Below the pieces are notes generated by a model. The model was not told the origin of the DNA and ran no database searches. It worked only from the letters and a program-made list of their open reading frames with translations. Below, piece after piece: positions 1 through 23,164 of a DNA stretch of 28,971 nucleotides. A program made the position numbers and the translations under genes. The stretch spans positions 1-28,971 of the IMG/VR virus record IMGVR_UViG_3300006163_000013, one strand, 5' to 3'. The DNA is from a virus. Numbering within the stretch: the stretch's first letter is position 1; the number at the start of each line of letters is the position of its first letter.

Positions 1-140
1 TAGAAGTGTGCAGGGGGTCCCCCAGGGCCTCCCCAGGGCGCAGAACCCCAGGGAGAGCCCTTTCCGGCCTCCAGACCTGGGGTTTTAATAGGCCGGGGGC
101 CCAGGTTTGGGGTCTGGGCCCCCGGCAAGGGTGAGGTAGT
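1..140. other. GC-rich non-coding end with CCCCAGGG repeats
   Basis: No minus-strand ATG or GTG start is available in the first 91 bases, so I see no gene here. The stretch is packed with short G/C runs: CCCCAGGG occurs at 20-27, 31-38 and 46-53, GGGGGTCCCCC is self-complementary at 13-23, and a perfect hairpin lies at 92-126. It follows the last gene of the leftward transcript and looks like an untranslated structured tail. Confidence 0.5.
92..126 (-). terminator. GC hairpin after the last gene
   Basis: A 13-bp perfect stem, GCCGGGGGCCCAG paired with CTGGGCCCCCGGC, has a 9-base loop. It lies 14 bases past the stop of the gene at 141-392. On the minus strand it is followed by CTATTAAAACCCC, not a T run, so it is not a canonical intrinsic terminator. 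It could act as a U-less terminator or an RNA end-protecting structure. Confidence 0.45.
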
Positions 141-4178: not shown

Positions 4179-4976
4179 CTACCTGAGTTTTCCCATGAGT
4201 CCGACGACCTTCTCCTGTTCGGTGTGGACGTAGATCTTCGCCAGCTCCAGCGACGACCAGCGAAGCTGCTTCCGGACGTAGTTGAAGTCGAACCCGGCGG
4301 CGATCAGGCGGCTCGCCCTGGTGTGCCGCATGATGTGGACGAGCCCGGCGCGGTCCGGCTTCACCTTATCGAGGATCTTCTCGAAGACGTGCTGGAAAGT
4401 CCTCTTGGCGATCGGGAAGAGGAGTTCGTCGGCGTCGAGCTTCTTGATCCAGACGAGCAGCTCCTTCGCGAGCGTCCCGCTGTTGTCCAGGTCGACCGGC
4501 AAGAGGGGATGACCCGCCTTCTTCAGCGTCGGCATCCGGATGATCGAGATCGGCCCAGGCCGGATCTCGATGTTTCGCTTCCGGACGAGCAGCGTCTCGC
4601 CGCATCTGGCGCCGGTCTCGAGCGTGAAGCGGATCGCGATGCCGTAGAGGGCTTCGACCTCGTAGGTCTTCTTCAGCGTCTTCCGATACTCCTCGTCGTT
4701 CAAGAATTTCCTGGAGTCGATTTCCGCCGTGATCATCGACGAGGCGCTGCCCTTCGTCCACTGGCTTCGACAGCACTTCTCGACGCAGACGATCAACTTG
4801 TCCTTCCGACCTGGGATCTGGAGCGTCTTCCGCTGGCAGACGTGGTCCGGAGAGGTGCAGGTCCTGGCGCGATCGCGGCCGAGCGTGTAGCGTGCCTTGA
4901 ACGGCTTCGAGCAGACGTGACAGACCGCGTCGATGCAGTAGTCAGGGTCCTGGGGCGGTTCCTTCTTCTTTTTCAT
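4179..4976 (-). CDS. Tyrosine recombinase/integrase with Cys-rich N-terminus
   Basis: This 265-residue site-specific recombinase retains the catalytic signature: Arg124 in TGARCGE, a likely beta-hairpin Lys at 152-153, HIMRHTR (His214, Arg217), Trp240 in LRWSS at the His/Trp position, and the nucleophile Tyr249 in KIYVHT. In place of a normal core-binding N-terminus it has about 75 residues with eight Cys (14, 19, 22, 40, 47, 64, 68, 69), suggesting one or two zinc ribbons that bind DNA. The ATG overlaps the upstream stop (ATGA). No attachment site could be identified beside it. It could integrate the element, resolve dimers or invert segments. Confidence 0.85.
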   Translation of the reverse strand: MKKKKEPPQDPDYCIDAVCHVCSKPFKARYTLGRDRARTCTSPDHVCQRKTLQIPGRKDKLIVCVEKCCRSQWTKGSASSMITAEIDSRKFLNDEEYRKTLKKTYEVEALYGIAIRFTLETGARCGETLLVRKRNIEIRPGPISIIRMPTLKKAGHPLLPVDLDNSGTLAKELLVWIKKLDADELLFPIAKRTFQHVFEKILDKVKPDRAGLVHIMRHTRASRLIAAGFDFNYVRKQLRWSSLELAKIYVHTEQEKVVGLMGKLR

Positions 4977-5245
4977 TTCCTAAGGATAGTCGCGTACCCT
5001 GGAGTGTTCTCGCCCATGTAGGCGCCGATGACGTTGAACTCGAAGTACTCTTCGGCGCCCTCCCGGCCCATGCCGTCGCGCTTCATCAAGATCTCGATAC
5101 ACTTCTTCCGATCGTAGAGAGCGATCGTCCGGTTGAAGATCTGCACGTAGCCCACCAGGGCGTCCTCGAAGCCATCAGCCAGGAGCGCCTCGTCGTTGGC
5201 GCTCGAGAGCTCCTCCTGGATCTCCTTGAATTTCTCGTCGACCAT
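4973..5245 (-). CDS. Conserved small phage protein, function unknown
   Basis: This 90-residue protein resembles a small protein family common in phages and bacteria. The recognisable core is an ALYDRKKCIEIL segment followed by RDGM, GAEEYFEFNVIGAYMG and GENTP. The start ATG at 5245 overlaps the TGA of the sigma-factor gene (TGATG), with a GGAG site upstream. An earlier in-frame ATG at 5278 would sit inside the sigma gene and is less likely. The family has no function that I know of. Confidence 0.75.
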   Translation of the reverse strand: MVDEKFKEIQEELSSANDEALLADGFEDALVGYVQIFNRTIALYDRKKCIEILMKRDGMGREGAEEYFEFNVIGAYMGENTPGYATILRK

Positions 5246-5730
5246 CACTCCGCCTTTACGTACTCGATGAATCGCCATAGACGCTCCTTCGCGCGGAAGA
5301 ACCTCGTGAGGACGGTGTTGAGCTTGGTCCTGGTCCGCTTCGCGATCTCCGGGAACGGCAGCTGGTCGACGATCCGAAGGGTTACGATCCGGCGCCAGCC
5401 CCTCGGAAGCTTCGCGACGACCTCATCGAAGACCTTCATCGCCTCCCTTGAGACGGCCTCCGCGAAGGCGCTCCTGGCCGCCTGCTCGTGGCAGATCTCC
5501 AGGTAGGCGTTCTCGTTCTGGTGGTGTCGGAGCCAAGTGATCGCGGAGTTTCGGACAGCCATCTTCAGGTACGCTGCGATCTTCGACTTCGGAACCTTCA
5601 ACGGATCAATCCGCTGGGCGCACTTCGAAATCGCGTCGGCGACGACAAGGTCGGCCGCGCCGCTGTCCTTTGTGATCGATCGAGCGTACGTGTGAAGCCG
5701 GAACTGGACGAGGGGCGTCACGACGGCCAT
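5245..5730 (-). CDS. ECF-like RNA polymerase sigma factor
   Basis: This 161-residue protein has the two-domain layout of group IV sigma factors. A sigma-2-like helical region (~5-75) contains AADLVVADAISKC and the helix ending KSKIAAYLKMAVRNSAITWLR. After a short linker a sigma-4-like HTH (~102-155) contains KLPRGWRRIVTLRIVDQLPF and PEIAKRTRTKLNTVLTRFFR. It would direct host RNA polymerase to its own promoters or alter host transcription. The start at 5730 overlaps the upstream stop (TGATG). The longer in-frame extension to 5964 is antisense to the upstream gene and is rejected. No anti-sigma gene is adjacent. Confidence 0.75.
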   Translation of the reverse strand: MAVVTPLVQFRLHTYARSITKDSGAADLVVADAISKCAQRIDPLKVPKSKIAAYLKMAVRNSAITWLRHHQNENAYLEICHEQAARSAFAEAVSREAMKVFDEVVAKLPRGWRRIVTLRIVDQLPFPEIAKRTRTKLNTVLTRFFRAKERLWRFIEYVKAE

Positions 5731-6321: not shown

Positions 6322-6345
6322 TGCACAGTTGTCCACTACTGTGCC
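6322..6345 (-). repeat. Divergent copy (G) of the 24-base junction element
   Basis: The minus strand reads GGCACAGTAG, then four bases, then ACAACTGTGC and A. The arms GCACAGT and ACTGTGC form a 7-bp stem. It begins just after the TGA of the gene at 6347-6538 and matches the 12-14 kb copies in length, first seven bases and overall symmetry. No T run follows, so it is not a standard terminator. Confidence 0.45.
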
Positions 6346-11811: not shown

Positions 11812-12093
11812 TCACTTACATAGCCACCACTCGAGCCAACGAGCGAACCTCAGGAGCACGAGCCGGATCCTGGGGCCGCGGCACTCCCGGTAGCAGACCG
11901 AGCAGTACGGCGGGTTCCCGAGAATATTCATAGAGCAGTGGTCGCAGGCGCACGTCACCACAGCAAACCCTCCAGGCATCGAGCGGCAATAAGAACAGCT
12001 GCTAAGGCAGTCATTGCAGTTCACCCAGCGGATGTGCTTTGGCTTTCCGCAATGGCAAGCGTCTACGTATGGATCACCCACCCTGAAAGGCAT
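11812..12093 (-). CDS. Cys-rich multi-zinc-finger protein
   Basis: This 93-residue protein has about 15 Cys in CxC, CxxC and CxxxC spacings (CHCGKPKH, CNDCLSSCSYC, CACDHC, CSVCYREC), enough for three zinc sites. It ends in a hydrophobic/basic helix (IRLVLLRFARWLEWWLCK) that could be amphipathic and touch a membrane. Its ATG lies inside junction element A, right after the stop of the upstream gene. The function is unknown. Confidence 0.6.
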   Translation of the reverse strand: MPFRVGDPYVDACHCGKPKHIRWVNCNDCLSSCSYCRSMPGGFAVVTCACDHCSMNILGNPPYCSVCYRECRGPRIRLVLLRFARWLEWWLCK

Positions 12094-12112
12094 TCTTCAG
12101 CCTTTCTGTGCC
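12089..12112 (-). repeat. Junction element copy A
   Basis: The minus strand reads GGCACAGAAAGGCTG then AAGAATGCC. The arms are GGCA and TGCC. The element holds the last codons and TGA of the upstream gene and the ATG of the downstream gene. AGAAAGG within it can serve as Shine-Dalgarno. Confidence 0.75.
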
Positions 12113-12297
12113 TTATAGGGCCCGATCACCCTTGCGGGGACGACGAATACTCGTCCGCTGCCTTCGCAGAGCTGGCAACGTTCCCAGTCGTTATGACCGA
12201 TCTCCGTCTTGAATCGCGCGTGAAAGGTCAGCACTACCCCGCGCCCATCGCACTTCGGGCACTCGCAAACGTTCAGACCTTCTTCACGTTCCGGCAT
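12097..12297 (-). CDS. DnaJ-type zinc-finger small protein
   Basis: This 66-residue protein has two CxxCxGxG repeats, CPKCDGRG (13-20) and CQLCEGSG (41-48), the layout of the DnaJ cysteine-rich domain but with only two repeats. It probably binds one zinc and may act as a small RNA- or protein-binding factor. It starts at an ATG inside junction element B and ends inside element A with the C-terminal residues AQKG. Confidence 0.65.
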   Translation of the reverse strand: MPEREEGLNVCECPKCDGRGVVLTFHARFKTEIGHNDWERCQLCEGSGRVFVVPARVIGPYKAQKG

Positions 12298-12316
12298 TCT
12301 TCACCTTTTCTGTGCC
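12293..12316 (-). repeat. Junction element copy B
   Basis: The minus strand reads GGCACAGAAAAGGTG then AAGAATGCC. It is nearly identical to copy A. It contains the TGA of the 54-residue gene and the ATG of the DnaJ-finger gene. Confidence 0.75.
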
Positions 12317-12465
12317 ACAGGTTCCGCGTGCCAAGAATCTCGGCAACCACAAATCGTTGACCCCGGCTCCTCCTTGCATATCACGATTTCAAGGCACGGA
12401 AACACGCCCGGTTCAGCACCGGAAATGTCTTTATAATCGTGACCGCAGATTGGGCACTTCGGCAT
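12301..12465 (-). CDS. 54-residue Cys-rich protein
   Basis: This short gene is easily missed. It begins MPKCPICGHDY and carries CPIC (4-7), single Cys at about 24 and 30, and CGC near 39-41, plus a final His. This suggests one zinc ribbon. Its ATG lies in junction element C and its TGA in element B, exactly as for its neighbours, which supports it as a real gene. The C-terminus is AQKR, encoded by the element itself. Confidence 0.6.
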   Translation of the reverse strand: MPKCPICGHDYKDISGAEPGVFPCLEIVICKEEPGSTICGCRDSWHAEPVAQKR

Positions 12466-12484
12466 TCTTTACCTCTTCTGTGCC
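12461..12484 (-). repeat. Junction element copy C
   Basis: The minus strand reads GGCACAGAAGAGGTA then AAGAATGCC. It contains the TAA of the gene at 12,469-12,924 and the ATG of the 54-residue gene. GAGG within it can act as Shine-Dalgarno. Confidence 0.75.
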
Positions 12485-12924
12485 AACCTCTTTGCGATCC
12501 GGAACGGAGTAACCCAAACGACAGGGATCTTCTGACTCTGCCTGTACTGCTCCGCGTACCACCGAAGCCTATGCAATCCGTCTTCGACGACGATCTCCGG
12601 ATAGGGTCCACCGGGAGGAGCCGACAAGAAAATCGGCCACAGAGAATCTGGGTCGTCCTGAGCCCACGCTGGAGGCCACTGATAATCGTCTTTTGATTCT
12701 TGATGCGCGACGAGATCACGCAGGAATTCTTTAACGGAGCCGCCGTAGATGCGGGCGGCCTCCTTCAGGAGCCAGCCCAGCGACACGAAGGCGTAGCCGT
12801 AGGTTTGGCGTTCGGCTATTCCGCCCAGGTGCTCATCGACGGCCATCTTGAATTCTTCTGGGAGGTCGTCGTACGACGTTGCTTCAACAACTTTCGCCTT
12901 CGCCATCTTTACCCTCTTTGGCAC
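12469..12924 (-). CDS. ParB/Srx-fold-like hypothetical protein
   Basis: This 151-residue protein has a C-terminal segment (YPEIVVEDGLHRLRWYAE, then KIPVVWV; ~108-138) that resembles the nucleotide-binding strand-helix-strand of ParB N-domains (DGxHRL followed by a V-rich strand). The N-terminal ~75 residues are helical. If correct, it could bind CTP/ATP or DNA, but this is a motif resemblance only. The GTG at 12,924 sits at the start position of junction element D, as ATG does in copies A-C. An ATG at 12,906 preceded by AGAGGG is an alternative. Confidence 0.55.
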   Translation of the reverse strand: MPKRVKMAKAKVVEATSYDDLPEEFKMAVDEHLGGIAERQTYGYAFVSLGWLLKEAARIYGGSVKEFLRDLVAHQESKDDYQWPPAWAQDDPDSLWPIFLSAPPGGPYPEIVVEDGLHRLRWYAEQYRQSQKIPVVWVTPFRIAKRLAQKR

Positions 12925-12943
12925 TCAATCTGCCTTCTGTGCA
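12920..12943 (-). repeat. Junction element copy D
   Basis: The minus strand reads TGCACAGAAGGCAGA then TTGAGTGCC. It holds the TGA of the upstream gene and the GTG start of the downstream gene; GTG replaces the ATG of copies A-C. Confidence 0.7.
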
Positions 12944-13197
12944 GTCTCTTTAAGTACCTTCATCTGCCACTTCCAGTGAGCAACGTGATCAAAGTCCAAC
13001 TCTACGCGCCAGCGGCCATCGACGTCGGACGGAGCTCCGCGCTCCGAATGCTGCTCACGCATCATACGCCAGTTGGACGGTGGGAGTTCGTAAGCGGCTG
13101 GATCGTAGTTGAAGCTCGGGTCGAACTCTTCGACCTCAAGCGGCAGGCGCACAAAGGCGGCGGTCATCAGAATGACGAACGCGAGAGATCTAATCAC
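12925..13197 (-). CDS. Small protein with N-terminal signal or anchor
   Basis: This 90-residue protein starts at a GTG that overlaps the upstream TGA (GTGA). The N-terminus (MIRSLAFVILMTAAFVRLPL) is a basic-then-hydrophobic segment typical of a Sec signal peptide or membrane anchor. The remainder is polar and aromatic, without Cys. The C-terminal AQKAD falls in junction element D. It is probably located in or across the inner membrane. Function is unknown. Confidence 0.6.
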   Translation of the reverse strand: MIRSLAFVILMTAAFVRLPLEVEEFDPSFNYDPAAYELPPSNWRMMREQHSERGAPSDVDGRWRVELDFDHVAHWKWQMKVLKETAQKAD

Positions 13198-13424
13198 TTC
13201 ATTTCCAGTGTCATCACCAGGGCGTACGGACCGTGTCCCGGCTTCTGAGACAGCACTTCCCGGAAGATCACCCAGTCGCTGCACCAGCAGCAGCGCAGAC
13301 TCCGCTCGTCCTTCGCAGGCCTTATTCCGTCATCTATACAAAAGCAGTGAGGAAGCCCGAGTTCCGGCACCGCCGGGTGAACATGCTTACCGCACGAGGT
13401 CAGGATCTCGACTTGCTTTGACAT
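13194..13424 (-). CDS. Cys-rich hypothetical protein
   Basis: This 76-residue protein has several Cys and His (SCGKHVH, PHCFC, RCCWC), suggesting one or two metal sites. The ATG at 13,424 is chosen because the upstream in-frame ATG (13,460) lies inside the previous gene. The ribosome site is weak. The next gene overlaps its stop (GTGA). No family is recognised. Confidence 0.55.
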   Translation of the reverse strand: MSKQVEILTSCGKHVHPAVPELGLPHCFCIDDGIRPAKDERSLRCCWCSDWVIFREVLSQKPGHGPYALVMTLEMK

Positions 13425-13431
13425 AATAGCT

Positions 13432-13788
13432 CTACCGCGTAGTCGGGAAACAGTTCCCACAGGTGACGACCTTTCCCGCCGTGTGCATCACCCGGCTACC
13501 GTCGTTCCGCCAGCCGCAGGAACCGCAGACCTGGACTTCATCAACCCGCTTTTCGGCCTGCTTCAGATGCTCTCCCCGTTGCCAGCGTCGGAGAAGTTCT
13601 TTGGCATCGCACCGAACGGCGATTGGGTACTTTTCAGAGTCAACTATCTTGGTCAAAATCTCCATGGCGCCTGAGAGCATTTCGTTGGCTACGCCGTTCT
13701 GAAGTTCTGTCTCTTTCTTGGCGGCGTCGTACCCCTCCTGCCAAGTCTTTTCGATTAGCGCGTTGAATTCGTTGTCAGTCATTTCCAT
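13432..13788 (-). CDS. Helical protein with C-terminal zinc ribbon
   Basis: This 118-residue protein is helical over about 85 residues (EFNALIEKTWQEGYDAAKKE and later EILTKIVDSEKY), then ends in a ribbon with CGSC (88-91) and CGNC (110-113). The ATG at 13,788 lies about 26 bases past junction element E, with an in-frame ATG two codons later. It may bind nucleic acid or a partner through the ribbon. It is unrecognised. Confidence 0.6.
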   Translation of the reverse strand: MEMTDNEFNALIEKTWQEGYDAAKKETELQNGVANEMLSGAMEILTKIVDSEKYPIAVRCDAKELLRRWQRGEHLKQAEKRVDEVQVCGSCGWRNDGSRVMHTAGKVVTCGNCFPTTR

Positions 13789-13814
13789 CGTTTCACCGTT
13801 GCTAAGGCTCTACT

Positions 13815-13838
13815 GGCACACTATTCGGCTTCTGTGCC
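13815..13838 (-). repeat. Junction element copy E
   Basis: The minus strand reads GGCACAGAAGCCGAA then TAGTGTGCC. It has a 6-bp stem (GGCACA/TGTGCC), stronger than in copies A-C. It begins in the TAG of the gene at 13,838-14,146, but the next start codon lies 26 bases beyond it. Confidence 0.65.
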
Positions 13839-14146
13839 TACAGCAGCCCTTTCTCCCTCATCCGATTCTCTACCGCCTTCTCCAGGTTGACGCTGGACTC
13901 GGACGCCATCTTCATGGCGCAGATCACGAGGTCGGCGAGGTACTTGTCGCAGCCGTAGAAGCTGACCGACGGAACGATCTTCGCTCCGTTGTGGTCGTGG
14001 TCGTCCGCGGCCCCGGCGATCTTCCCGGTCGCCTTCGTCGCGTGGAAAAGAGCGTGCTTGAACATGAACGCCGGATCCGGATTGTTCTGGAAGACCGGCT
14101 CGACGGTCCACGGCTTCATCTTGGACTGGAGCTCTTGCATCGTCAT
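13838..14146 (-). CDS. Hypothetical protein
   Basis: This 102-residue protein begins at an ATG with an excellent AGGAGG five bases upstream, itself just downstream of junction element F. The sequence is alpha/beta-like, with aromatic and His/Asp-rich segments (FKHALFHAT, DDHDHNGAK, SVSFYGCDKYLADLVICAM). DDHDH could bind metal. No family is recognised. Confidence 0.6.
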   Translation of the reverse strand: MTMQELQSKMKPWTVEPVFQNNPDPAFMFKHALFHATKATGKIAGAADDHDHNGAKIVPSVSFYGCDKYLADLVICAMKMASESSVNLEKAVENRMREKGLL

Positions 14147-14157
14147 ACCTTCCTCCT

Positions 14158-14181
14158 GGCACTCTTTAGGTCTTCTGTGCC
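14158..14181 (-). repeat. Junction element copy F
   Basis: The minus strand reads GGCACAGAAGACCTA then AAGAGTGCC, with a 5-bp stem (GGCAC/GTGCC). It begins in the TAG of the gene at 14,181-14,471. AGGAGG and the next ATG follow immediately after it, so here it is upstream of the ribosome site. Confidence 0.7.
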
Positions 14182-14471
14182 TACGACACGGAATCTGCGA
14201 ACATCGACGCCTGCTCCCTGGTCGTGAAGCCTTGAATCGCGCGATGCGACCAGCCGTACCACCTCTTTTCCTTCTCGTTGAATCCGATCGAGCAGACCAA
14301 GGATTTCGGAGTTCGGAGCTCGAATCGCGTGATGCCGTACTTCTTAACCAGCGCGTCGGCGAACTTCGGATCGCCGATGAAGTGGCCTTCGTGATTCTGA
14401 GCCTGCTTCATGCTCATCCGGGCGCGACCGACACCGACGCTCACGGTGACGACCTTGTATGGTTTTTCCAT
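14181..14471 (-). CDS. Hypothetical protein
   Basis: This 96-residue soluble protein shows beta-strand-like sequence at the N-terminus (YKVVTVSVGVGRARM) and a C-terminal half rich in Trp/Phe (RWYGWSHRAIQGFTTREQASMFA). There are no motifs that I can assign. It starts at an ATG at 14,471, nine bases after the stop of the 45-residue gene, with GGGGGAC as ribosome site. Confidence 0.6.
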   Translation of the reverse strand: MEKPYKVVTVSVGVGRARMSMKQAQNHEGHFIGDPKFADALVKKYGITRFELRTPKSLVCSIGFNEKEKRWYGWSHRAIQGFTTREQASMFADSVS

Positions 14472-22586: not shown

Positions 22587-23164
22587 ACGCGAACCCAGCA
22601 GCTCTGGAAGTGATCGAGCAGGCAGATGAATCGATTGTCCCTGAGGAAGCGTTTGGCGAGCTCTCCCTTGCCCCCGCCGATCGGATCGTTGTCGTCAATC
22701 AGGACGCAGGCTTTCGGACCAAGCTTCGGCATGGCGGCCTGCAGCTCTCTTGAGGCGTGCAGTTGCGCCGGAGCCGGGTTGCCGCGATCGTAGTCGAACG
22801 AGTCCAGGTAGAGCAGGTCGATCCGCCCCATGAAGGACTTCAGGAACTCCACGGAATCACCGACGACCAGGGTGATGAACTCGCTCGGCTCCACGAAGTG
22901 CCGGGCCGTCTCAACGTGCCGAGGTTCGATGTCGACGGACCAGAACCAAGTGTTCCCCCTCCTCTTCGCGAAGTCGGCGAACAGTCTGGTCGACGCCCCG
23001 TCCTGGTAGCTTTCGCTCCTGATGCACCCGGTCTCGACGATGTTGGATCCGCCGGTCTGGAACGTCCAGTTGAGCGCCATCTGGAACGTGGACCAGCGAT
23101 CGTGGATCCGGCTCCGGTAGAACTCGGCGAGCTTGTCTCTGAAGTCGAACACGTCTTCGATCAT
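22583..23164 (-). CDS. SAM-dependent methyltransferase
   Basis: This 193-residue class I methyltransferase has motif I around SNIVETGCIRSE (40-51), motif II around FWSVDIEPRHVETA (73-86), LVVGDSVEFLKSF (98-110) and DLLYLDSFDYDRG (115-127). The later VLIDDND resembles the Methyltransf_24-type enzymes that methylate glycans and are often found with sugar genes. The ATG overlaps the stop of the GT9-like gene (ATGA). It may cap or decorate the sugar made by the adjacent enzymes. Confidence 0.7.
   Translation of the reverse strand: MIEDVFDFRDKLAEFYRSRIHDRWSTFQMALNWTFQTGGSNIVETGCIRSESYQDGASTRLFADFAKRRGNTWFWSVDIEPRHVETARHFVEPSEFITLVVGDSVEFLKSFMGRIDLLYLDSFDYDRGNPAPAQLHASRELQAAMPKLGPKACVLIDDNDPIGGGKGELAKRFLRDNRFICLLDHFQSCWVRV

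Follow-up and report, generated by a model that had tools for sequence, protein, structure and literature searches.

What does a repeated 24-base element do at six consecutive gene junctions of a viral operon? The operon lies in a virus record of IMG/VR that is 28,971 bases long (IMGVR_UViG_3300006163_000013; this whole stretch is called the window here, and G000 among its relatives), and the initial annotation, made from the sequence alone, had described the repeat as an element with pairing arms that might couple translation, process messenger RNA (mRNA) or bind a phage regulator. Comparison with related contigs indicates that the element is a DNA site, for which an RNA hairpin is not the best reading. 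On this comparative evidence, we consider it probable that these sites are address-coded recombination sites, at which genes would be exchanged slot by slot by the phage's own tyrosine recombinase.

A 24-bp site at gene junctions of related phages

Relatives of the window were gathered by scanning IMG/VR for the pattern of the 24-base element and by protein searches. The element recurs at gene junctions in eight IMG/VR contigs besides the window, and the array-bearing contigs are thus nine (G000, G001, G002, G003, G017, G018, G019, G028 and G029). Three contigs, G028, G029 and G031, were recovered through their proteins and not through the site; the first two are therefore fair tests of the spacer rule described below. 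G017 and G028, each of ~70 kb, carry direct repeats at their termini (124 and 127 bp, respectively), in the manner of circular assemblies. The phage records hold no near DNA match to the window, and no cultured relative was found; searches with the recombinase and with a conserved structural-region protein returned no close phage isolate. None of the nine stretches that a scan of genome contigs gave has a slot spacer, and we therefore name no host. Rfam has no match to the 24-base element.

The six window copies lie where the initial annotation had placed them, all on the minus strand and all 24 bases long. The 5' sequence given as common to them, GGCACAGAA, is exact in five; the copy at 12920-12943 starts TGCACAGAA, differing at the first base only. 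The divergent seventh copy, at 6322-6345, is also real (GGCACAGTA GTGGAC AACTGTGCA). A genome-wide comparison of copies defines the site as a 24-bp imperfect palindrome in which two inverted 9-bp arms (KGCACWSWA) flank a 6-bp spacer, and this 9+6+9 layout was found in 81 distinct sites. GGCACAGAA has 13 occurrences at up to one mismatch, where 5.6 would be expected. A model of the 24-mer that uses the arms only detects 7 sites in the window (0.6 in shuffles), 9-18 in relatives of at least 31 kb (about 1-2.4 in shuffles) and 4-18 in each contig of at least 28 kb (about 0.6-2.4). An AG-type half is combined with a TC-type half in 30 of the 39 array sites, and the sites therefore have a direction; within the arrays all are in direct orientation.

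Each slot has its own spacer

The six copies of the window carry six different spacers which, in reading order (slots 1 to 6), are GACCTA, GCCGAA, GGCAGA, GAGGTA, AAGGTG and AGGCTG. Across nine contigs these spacers are found again at the array positions, and their order does not change. Nearly all array contigs have slots 1-5, although G001 has lost slot 2 and G029 is truncated beyond that slot. Slot 6 occurs in five contigs and carries a 1-bp insertion in one. G028 and G029 follow the spacer order, and G031 has slots 4 and 5 only, in that order. When sites were detected by their arms alone, none in the interior of an array had any other spacer. Within slots, pairwise comparison gave 0 mismatches in 732 for the spacer, 166 in 976 for the inner arm bases and 111 in 1220 for the outer arm bases, counts that omit G001 and treat related phages as independent. 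The slot spacers are thus invariant across phages while the arms vary by 9-17%, a pattern which suggests that the spacer is a partner-specific middle and that the arms tolerate change. No intact duplicate of a spacer was found within a genome in 8 genomes; additional copies of slot spacers are damaged.

Homology between phages ends at the sites

The spacers are kept while the genes between them almost wholly differ between phages: in slots 1-5, a relative in another of the array regions listed was detected for only 13 of 79 predicted proteins, and several of those 13 are shared solely by the near-twin pair G000/G001. In this pair, whose backbone is about 96% identical, identity ends at the downstream edge of the slot 1 site, and homology ends 2 bp past the slot 3 site, that is, at its downstream edge. 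At slots 4-6 the 24-bp site is all that is common between unrelated genes, apart from a few extra flanking bases at slot 4.

Homology was one-sided at 100 of 107 site comparisons, versus 369 of 742 starts of open reading frames (ORFs) in the same span and 407 of 1261 random points (all phage pairs). The gene-start control corrects for the sites lying between genes. One-sided homology extends to sites outside the array, in 83 of 89 comparisons. Of the ends of homology blocks, 63 lay no more than 10 bp from a site, where 24.7 were expected; this count carries no correction for the intergenic location of the sites. By these alignments, the sites are well supported as exchange boundaries, the junctions of a mosaic.

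A candidate recombinase and the proposed exchange

The window encodes a tyrosine recombinase with the complete catalytic set of the PF00589 family (R, K, H/R, H or W, Y); residues R124, K152/K153, H214, R217, W240 and Y249 are invariant in seven phages. PF00589 has exactly one match in each of nine contigs out of ten; the tenth, G029, is a 28.5-kb fragment and has none. Of ten window proteins tested, no other than the recombinase was present in every one of the first seven phages. Among proteins of solved structure, XerH, IntI4, XerD and XerA are its nearest relatives; its AlphaFold model is poor (predicted local distance difference test score, pLDDT, 59), and we rely for it on sequence evidence only. 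The co-occurrence of enzyme and sites suggests that the one acts on the other. Binding of a phage protein to the sites, which the initial annotation had entertained, is likely, and the data favour a recombinase over the regulator or the mRNA processing that it had in mind.

Conserved arms with partner-specific spacers are a hallmark of tyrosine recombinase sites. The sites described here share this design with them and with pdif sites, and on this basis we propose that the phage enzyme carries out the exchange, slot by slot. The recombinase would bind the two inverted 9-bp arms on either side of a 6-bp crossover spacer, and it would recombine two sites only when their spacers match, spacer identity being the presumed requirement of the enzyme. 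Each junction of the accessory operon has its own spacer, common to the same junction in related phages. During coinfection, a cassette lying between two sites would move into the matching slot of another phage, and the differing spacers would prevent recombination between neighbouring slots of one genome, which would cause deletion. The in-frame stop in the sites, with the ribosome site and start codon in slots 4-6, would allow the swapped cassette to be expressed in its new place. A broader claim, that the phage lineage shares an orthogonal set of about 12 or more sites per genome through which its members trade accessory genes slot-correct and expression-ready, seems to us evenly balanced.

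Several observations weigh against this proposal. The lack of intact duplicate spacers is near chance level (about 0.24 expected). Some non-array sites retain one homologous flank yet have an altered spacer, and between G017 10746 and G018 53394 the flank is 95% identical with five of the six spacer bases different. A 5-kb block is inverted between G018 61129-66143 and G028 47738-53681, bounded by sites whose spacers are mismatched; the block next to it is also inverted in G028 relative to G018. A homologous gene occupies slot 4 in G017 but slot 1 in G028; the address rule is not absolute, and slots would therefore be changeable over longer times. G018 has a Sak4-like annealing protein, which could recombine short homologies. 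Finally, four sites (G002 5399, G003 26412, G018 53394 and G017 10746) lie 7-9 bp upstream of a sigma70-like TTGACA, as operators might.

The Sak4-like protein, or host RecA, could instead support ordinary homologous or single-strand-annealing exchange at conserved boundaries, with the tags blocking pairing between neighbouring slots and the arms otherwise used, for example as translation signals. Annealing would account for the mosaic pattern and the one-sided homology, lambda Red reportedly recombines diverged sequences efficiently (PMC2327257), and the right-hand exchange point between the window and G001 may fall within a gene in which identity climbs from 73% to almost complete. However, it offers no reason for a perfect middle six bases alongside the change in the arms, palindromic arms common to all slots would favour mispairing, and the same arms are also found at non-array sites. 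We hold this explanation to be unlikely.

The position of some sites next to promoter-like sequences bears on another explanation, in which a phage regulator binds the arms as a dimer and the sites serve it as operators or stoperators, the junctions being simply where such sites fit. Palindromic arms with fixed spacing agree with it, as do the several non-array sites that precede TTGACA or adjoin TATAAT, and cluster A mycobacteriophages have stoperators, many repressor sites spread genome-wide. A regulator would leave unexplained both the slot-specific spacers kept amid unrelated neighbouring genes and the one-sided homology at 93% of non-array sites, and none was recognised among the core proteins checked, most of them unnamed. 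This makes it, in our judgement, distinctly improbable, and exchange by the recombinase remains our preferred account.

Translation signals within the sites

Read in the frame GCA CAG AAR, the site contains a stop codon with all six window spacers. The shared AQK-stop ending, with the stop of one gene overlapping the start of the next, had been described correctly for slots 4-6; in slots 1-3 a start 14-27 bases further along, with a ribosome site of its own, is more likely for the next gene. The suggested link to translation holds in the same part of the array: slots 4-6 supply the Shine-Dalgarno sequence and the ATG or GTG of the next gene, and slots 1-3 supply no ribosome site. With stop, ribosome site and start inside the site, a cassette would therefore be expressible wherever it was placed, which would explain what the initial annotation had seen.

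The same overlap of stop, ribosome site and start in slots 4-6 could speak for hairpins that couple translation or process RNA, which would make the element a new start-associated sequence (SAS), and the copies of slots 1 and 2 do fold better than most shuffles. The other four window copies fold no better than shuffles. The complementary arms reported by the initial annotation did not withstand a covariation check over the 81 distinct sites: no covariation between the arms was seen, and two position pairs, 6/19 and 7/18, are anti-complementary, being paired in 22 and 20 of 81 sites versus 39.5 and 35.6 in shuffles. On these two grounds the RNA hairpin was rejected. Further, the sites of slots 1-3 are without a ribosome site, many sites lie away from gene starts, and interchangeable ribosome sites would not retain six distinct cores in fixed order. 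We give hairpins very little credence. Nor does the likeness to the SAS of cluster K mycobacteriophages extend to the motif, GGGATAGGAGCCC, which has 0 matches in the window at up to 2 mismatches.

Genes between the sites and sites outside the array

The features discussed are collected in Table 1. Named cargo genes of the arrays encode GroES (G017), a cpYpsA SLOG protein (G003) and DUF6884 (G018). A protein search with the 145-aa product of the slot 3-4 cassette found no relative, and a partial search saw no near-identical, recently shared cassette between phages. In G001 an extra gene is inserted before the Tad6-like gene. An extracytoplasmic function (ECF)-like sigma factor gene (5245-5730, minus strand; Sigma70_r4_2, E=3e-9) is present in the window and G001, but no counterpart was found in the five other phages tested.

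Table 1. Sites, recombinase and array genes; positions refer to the window unless another contig is named.
Feature	Position	Strand	Remarks
Slot 1 site	14158..14181	-	GGCACAGAA-GACCTA-AAGAGTGCC; spacer identical in 9/9 array contigs
Slot 2 site	13815..13838	-	GGCACAGAA-GCCGAA-TAGTGTGCC; spacer identical in 8/9; deleted in G001
Slot 3 site	12920..12943	-	TGCACAGAA-GGCAGA-TTGAGTGCC
Slot 4 site	12461..12484	-	GGCACAGAA-GAGGTA-AAGAATGCC; encodes AQKR-stop, Shine-Dalgarno and ATG of next gene
Slot 5 site	12293..12316	-	GGCACAGAA-AAGGTG-AAGAATGCC; encodes AQKR-stop, Shine-Dalgarno and ATG
Slot 6 site	12089..12112	-	GGCACAGAA-AGGCTG-AAGAATGCC; encodes AQKG-stop, Shine-Dalgarno and ATG
Site outside array, spacer GTGGAC, after stop codon	6322..6345	-	Same in G001, homology on both flanks
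Half site at contig end, TAGAAGTGTGCA	1..12	.	Intact in G001 and G034: TGCACACTT-CTATCA-TTCTGTGCC
Tyrosine recombinase, 265 aa, proposed enzyme for the sites	4179..4976	-	PF00589, E=1.3e-14
Gene before slot 1, resembles type I Thoeris inhibitor Tad6	14181..14471	-	PF25188, E=4e-24
Slot 1-2 cassette gene, 102 aa	13838..14146	-	86% nucleotide relative without sites in G027
Slot 2-3 cassette, three ORFs	12925..13788	-	
Slot 3-4 cassette gene, 145 aa	12469..12906	-	No Pfam match
Slot 4-5 cassette gene, 54 aa	12301..12465	-	
Slot 5-6 cassette gene, 66 aa, Cys-rich	12097..12297	-	DnaJ/anti-TRAP-like, weak match
Gene after slot 6, start inside site	11812..12093	-	
GroES-like cargo gene in G017 array	L031:7789-8076	-	PF00166, E=2.6e-24

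The window contig terminates inside a site (TGCACACTTCTA...), and G034 (L115), a contig that resembles G001 at 94-99% over most of its length, starts at this site too, with its position 1. Next to a site, at window 12-60 and G001 22640-22690, lie interrupted palindromes of very high GC content (GGGGGTCCCCC, CCCAGGG). These shared contig ends could reflect population variants, or an assembly break caused by the adjacent palindrome. Elsewhere, further sites adjoin TATAATCGTAC.

Comparison with known systems

The closest parallel is with the pdif modules of Acinetobacter Rep_3 plasmids, which are exchanged by XerC/XerD. The dif site of these enzymes has a 6-bp spacer (PMC9947245), and pdif sites, also made of two recognition arms and a 6-bp spacer, recombine when their spacers are identical or near-identical, with arms that vary (PMC13141974, PMC9947245). 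Modules are replaced by others with the same flanking spacers (PMC13141974, PMC9947245), as in the comparison of the window with G001 and in the absence of spacer mismatches within slots. Unlike pdif, whose sites have 28 bp (11+6+11, with XerC and XerD arms) and alternate in orientation, the phage sites have 24 bp and a different arm sequence, and run in one direction along the operon; a single phage-encoded recombinase is proposed in place of the host enzymes, each slot keeps a fixed tag across species, and the sites carry expression signals.

In Cre/lox and Flp/FRT cassette exchange, matching spacers select the sites that recombine, and orthogonal sites keep the order of the cassettes. Those heterospecific sites are engineered and have 8-bp spacers, whereas the six tags described here appear natural, within one operon. 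Integrons, including those reported in phages (PMC9892861), also combine a tyrosine recombinase with an array of gene cassettes; unlike them, the phage arrays have a fixed slot order and no insertion at one attI, and the single-strand hairpin fold of attC is not supported, given the two anti-complementary pairs. The SAS of cluster K are likewise short repeats at gene junctions, before genes of different families, but with a 13-bp motif that is absent here and, in the extended form, arms of 17 bp with a spacer whose length varies (PMC3203893). Cluster A stoperators resemble the sites as numerous protein-binding sites in short intergenic gaps; they are, however, asymmetric repressor sites (PMC9283540), and neither slot-specific tags nor one-sided homology belongs to that system. 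A search of the literature, in open-access full text, turned up no description of tagged sites of this kind in phages.

How genes are swapped with clean edges in mosaic phage genomes is a long-standing question. Fixed short tags at gene edges, with a candidate enzyme encoded nearby, make a site-specific route to mosaicism directly testable. If the proposal is true, these phages would offer genetic engineering a set of orthogonal recombination sites of natural origin, and their arrays are a place to look for anti-defence genes.

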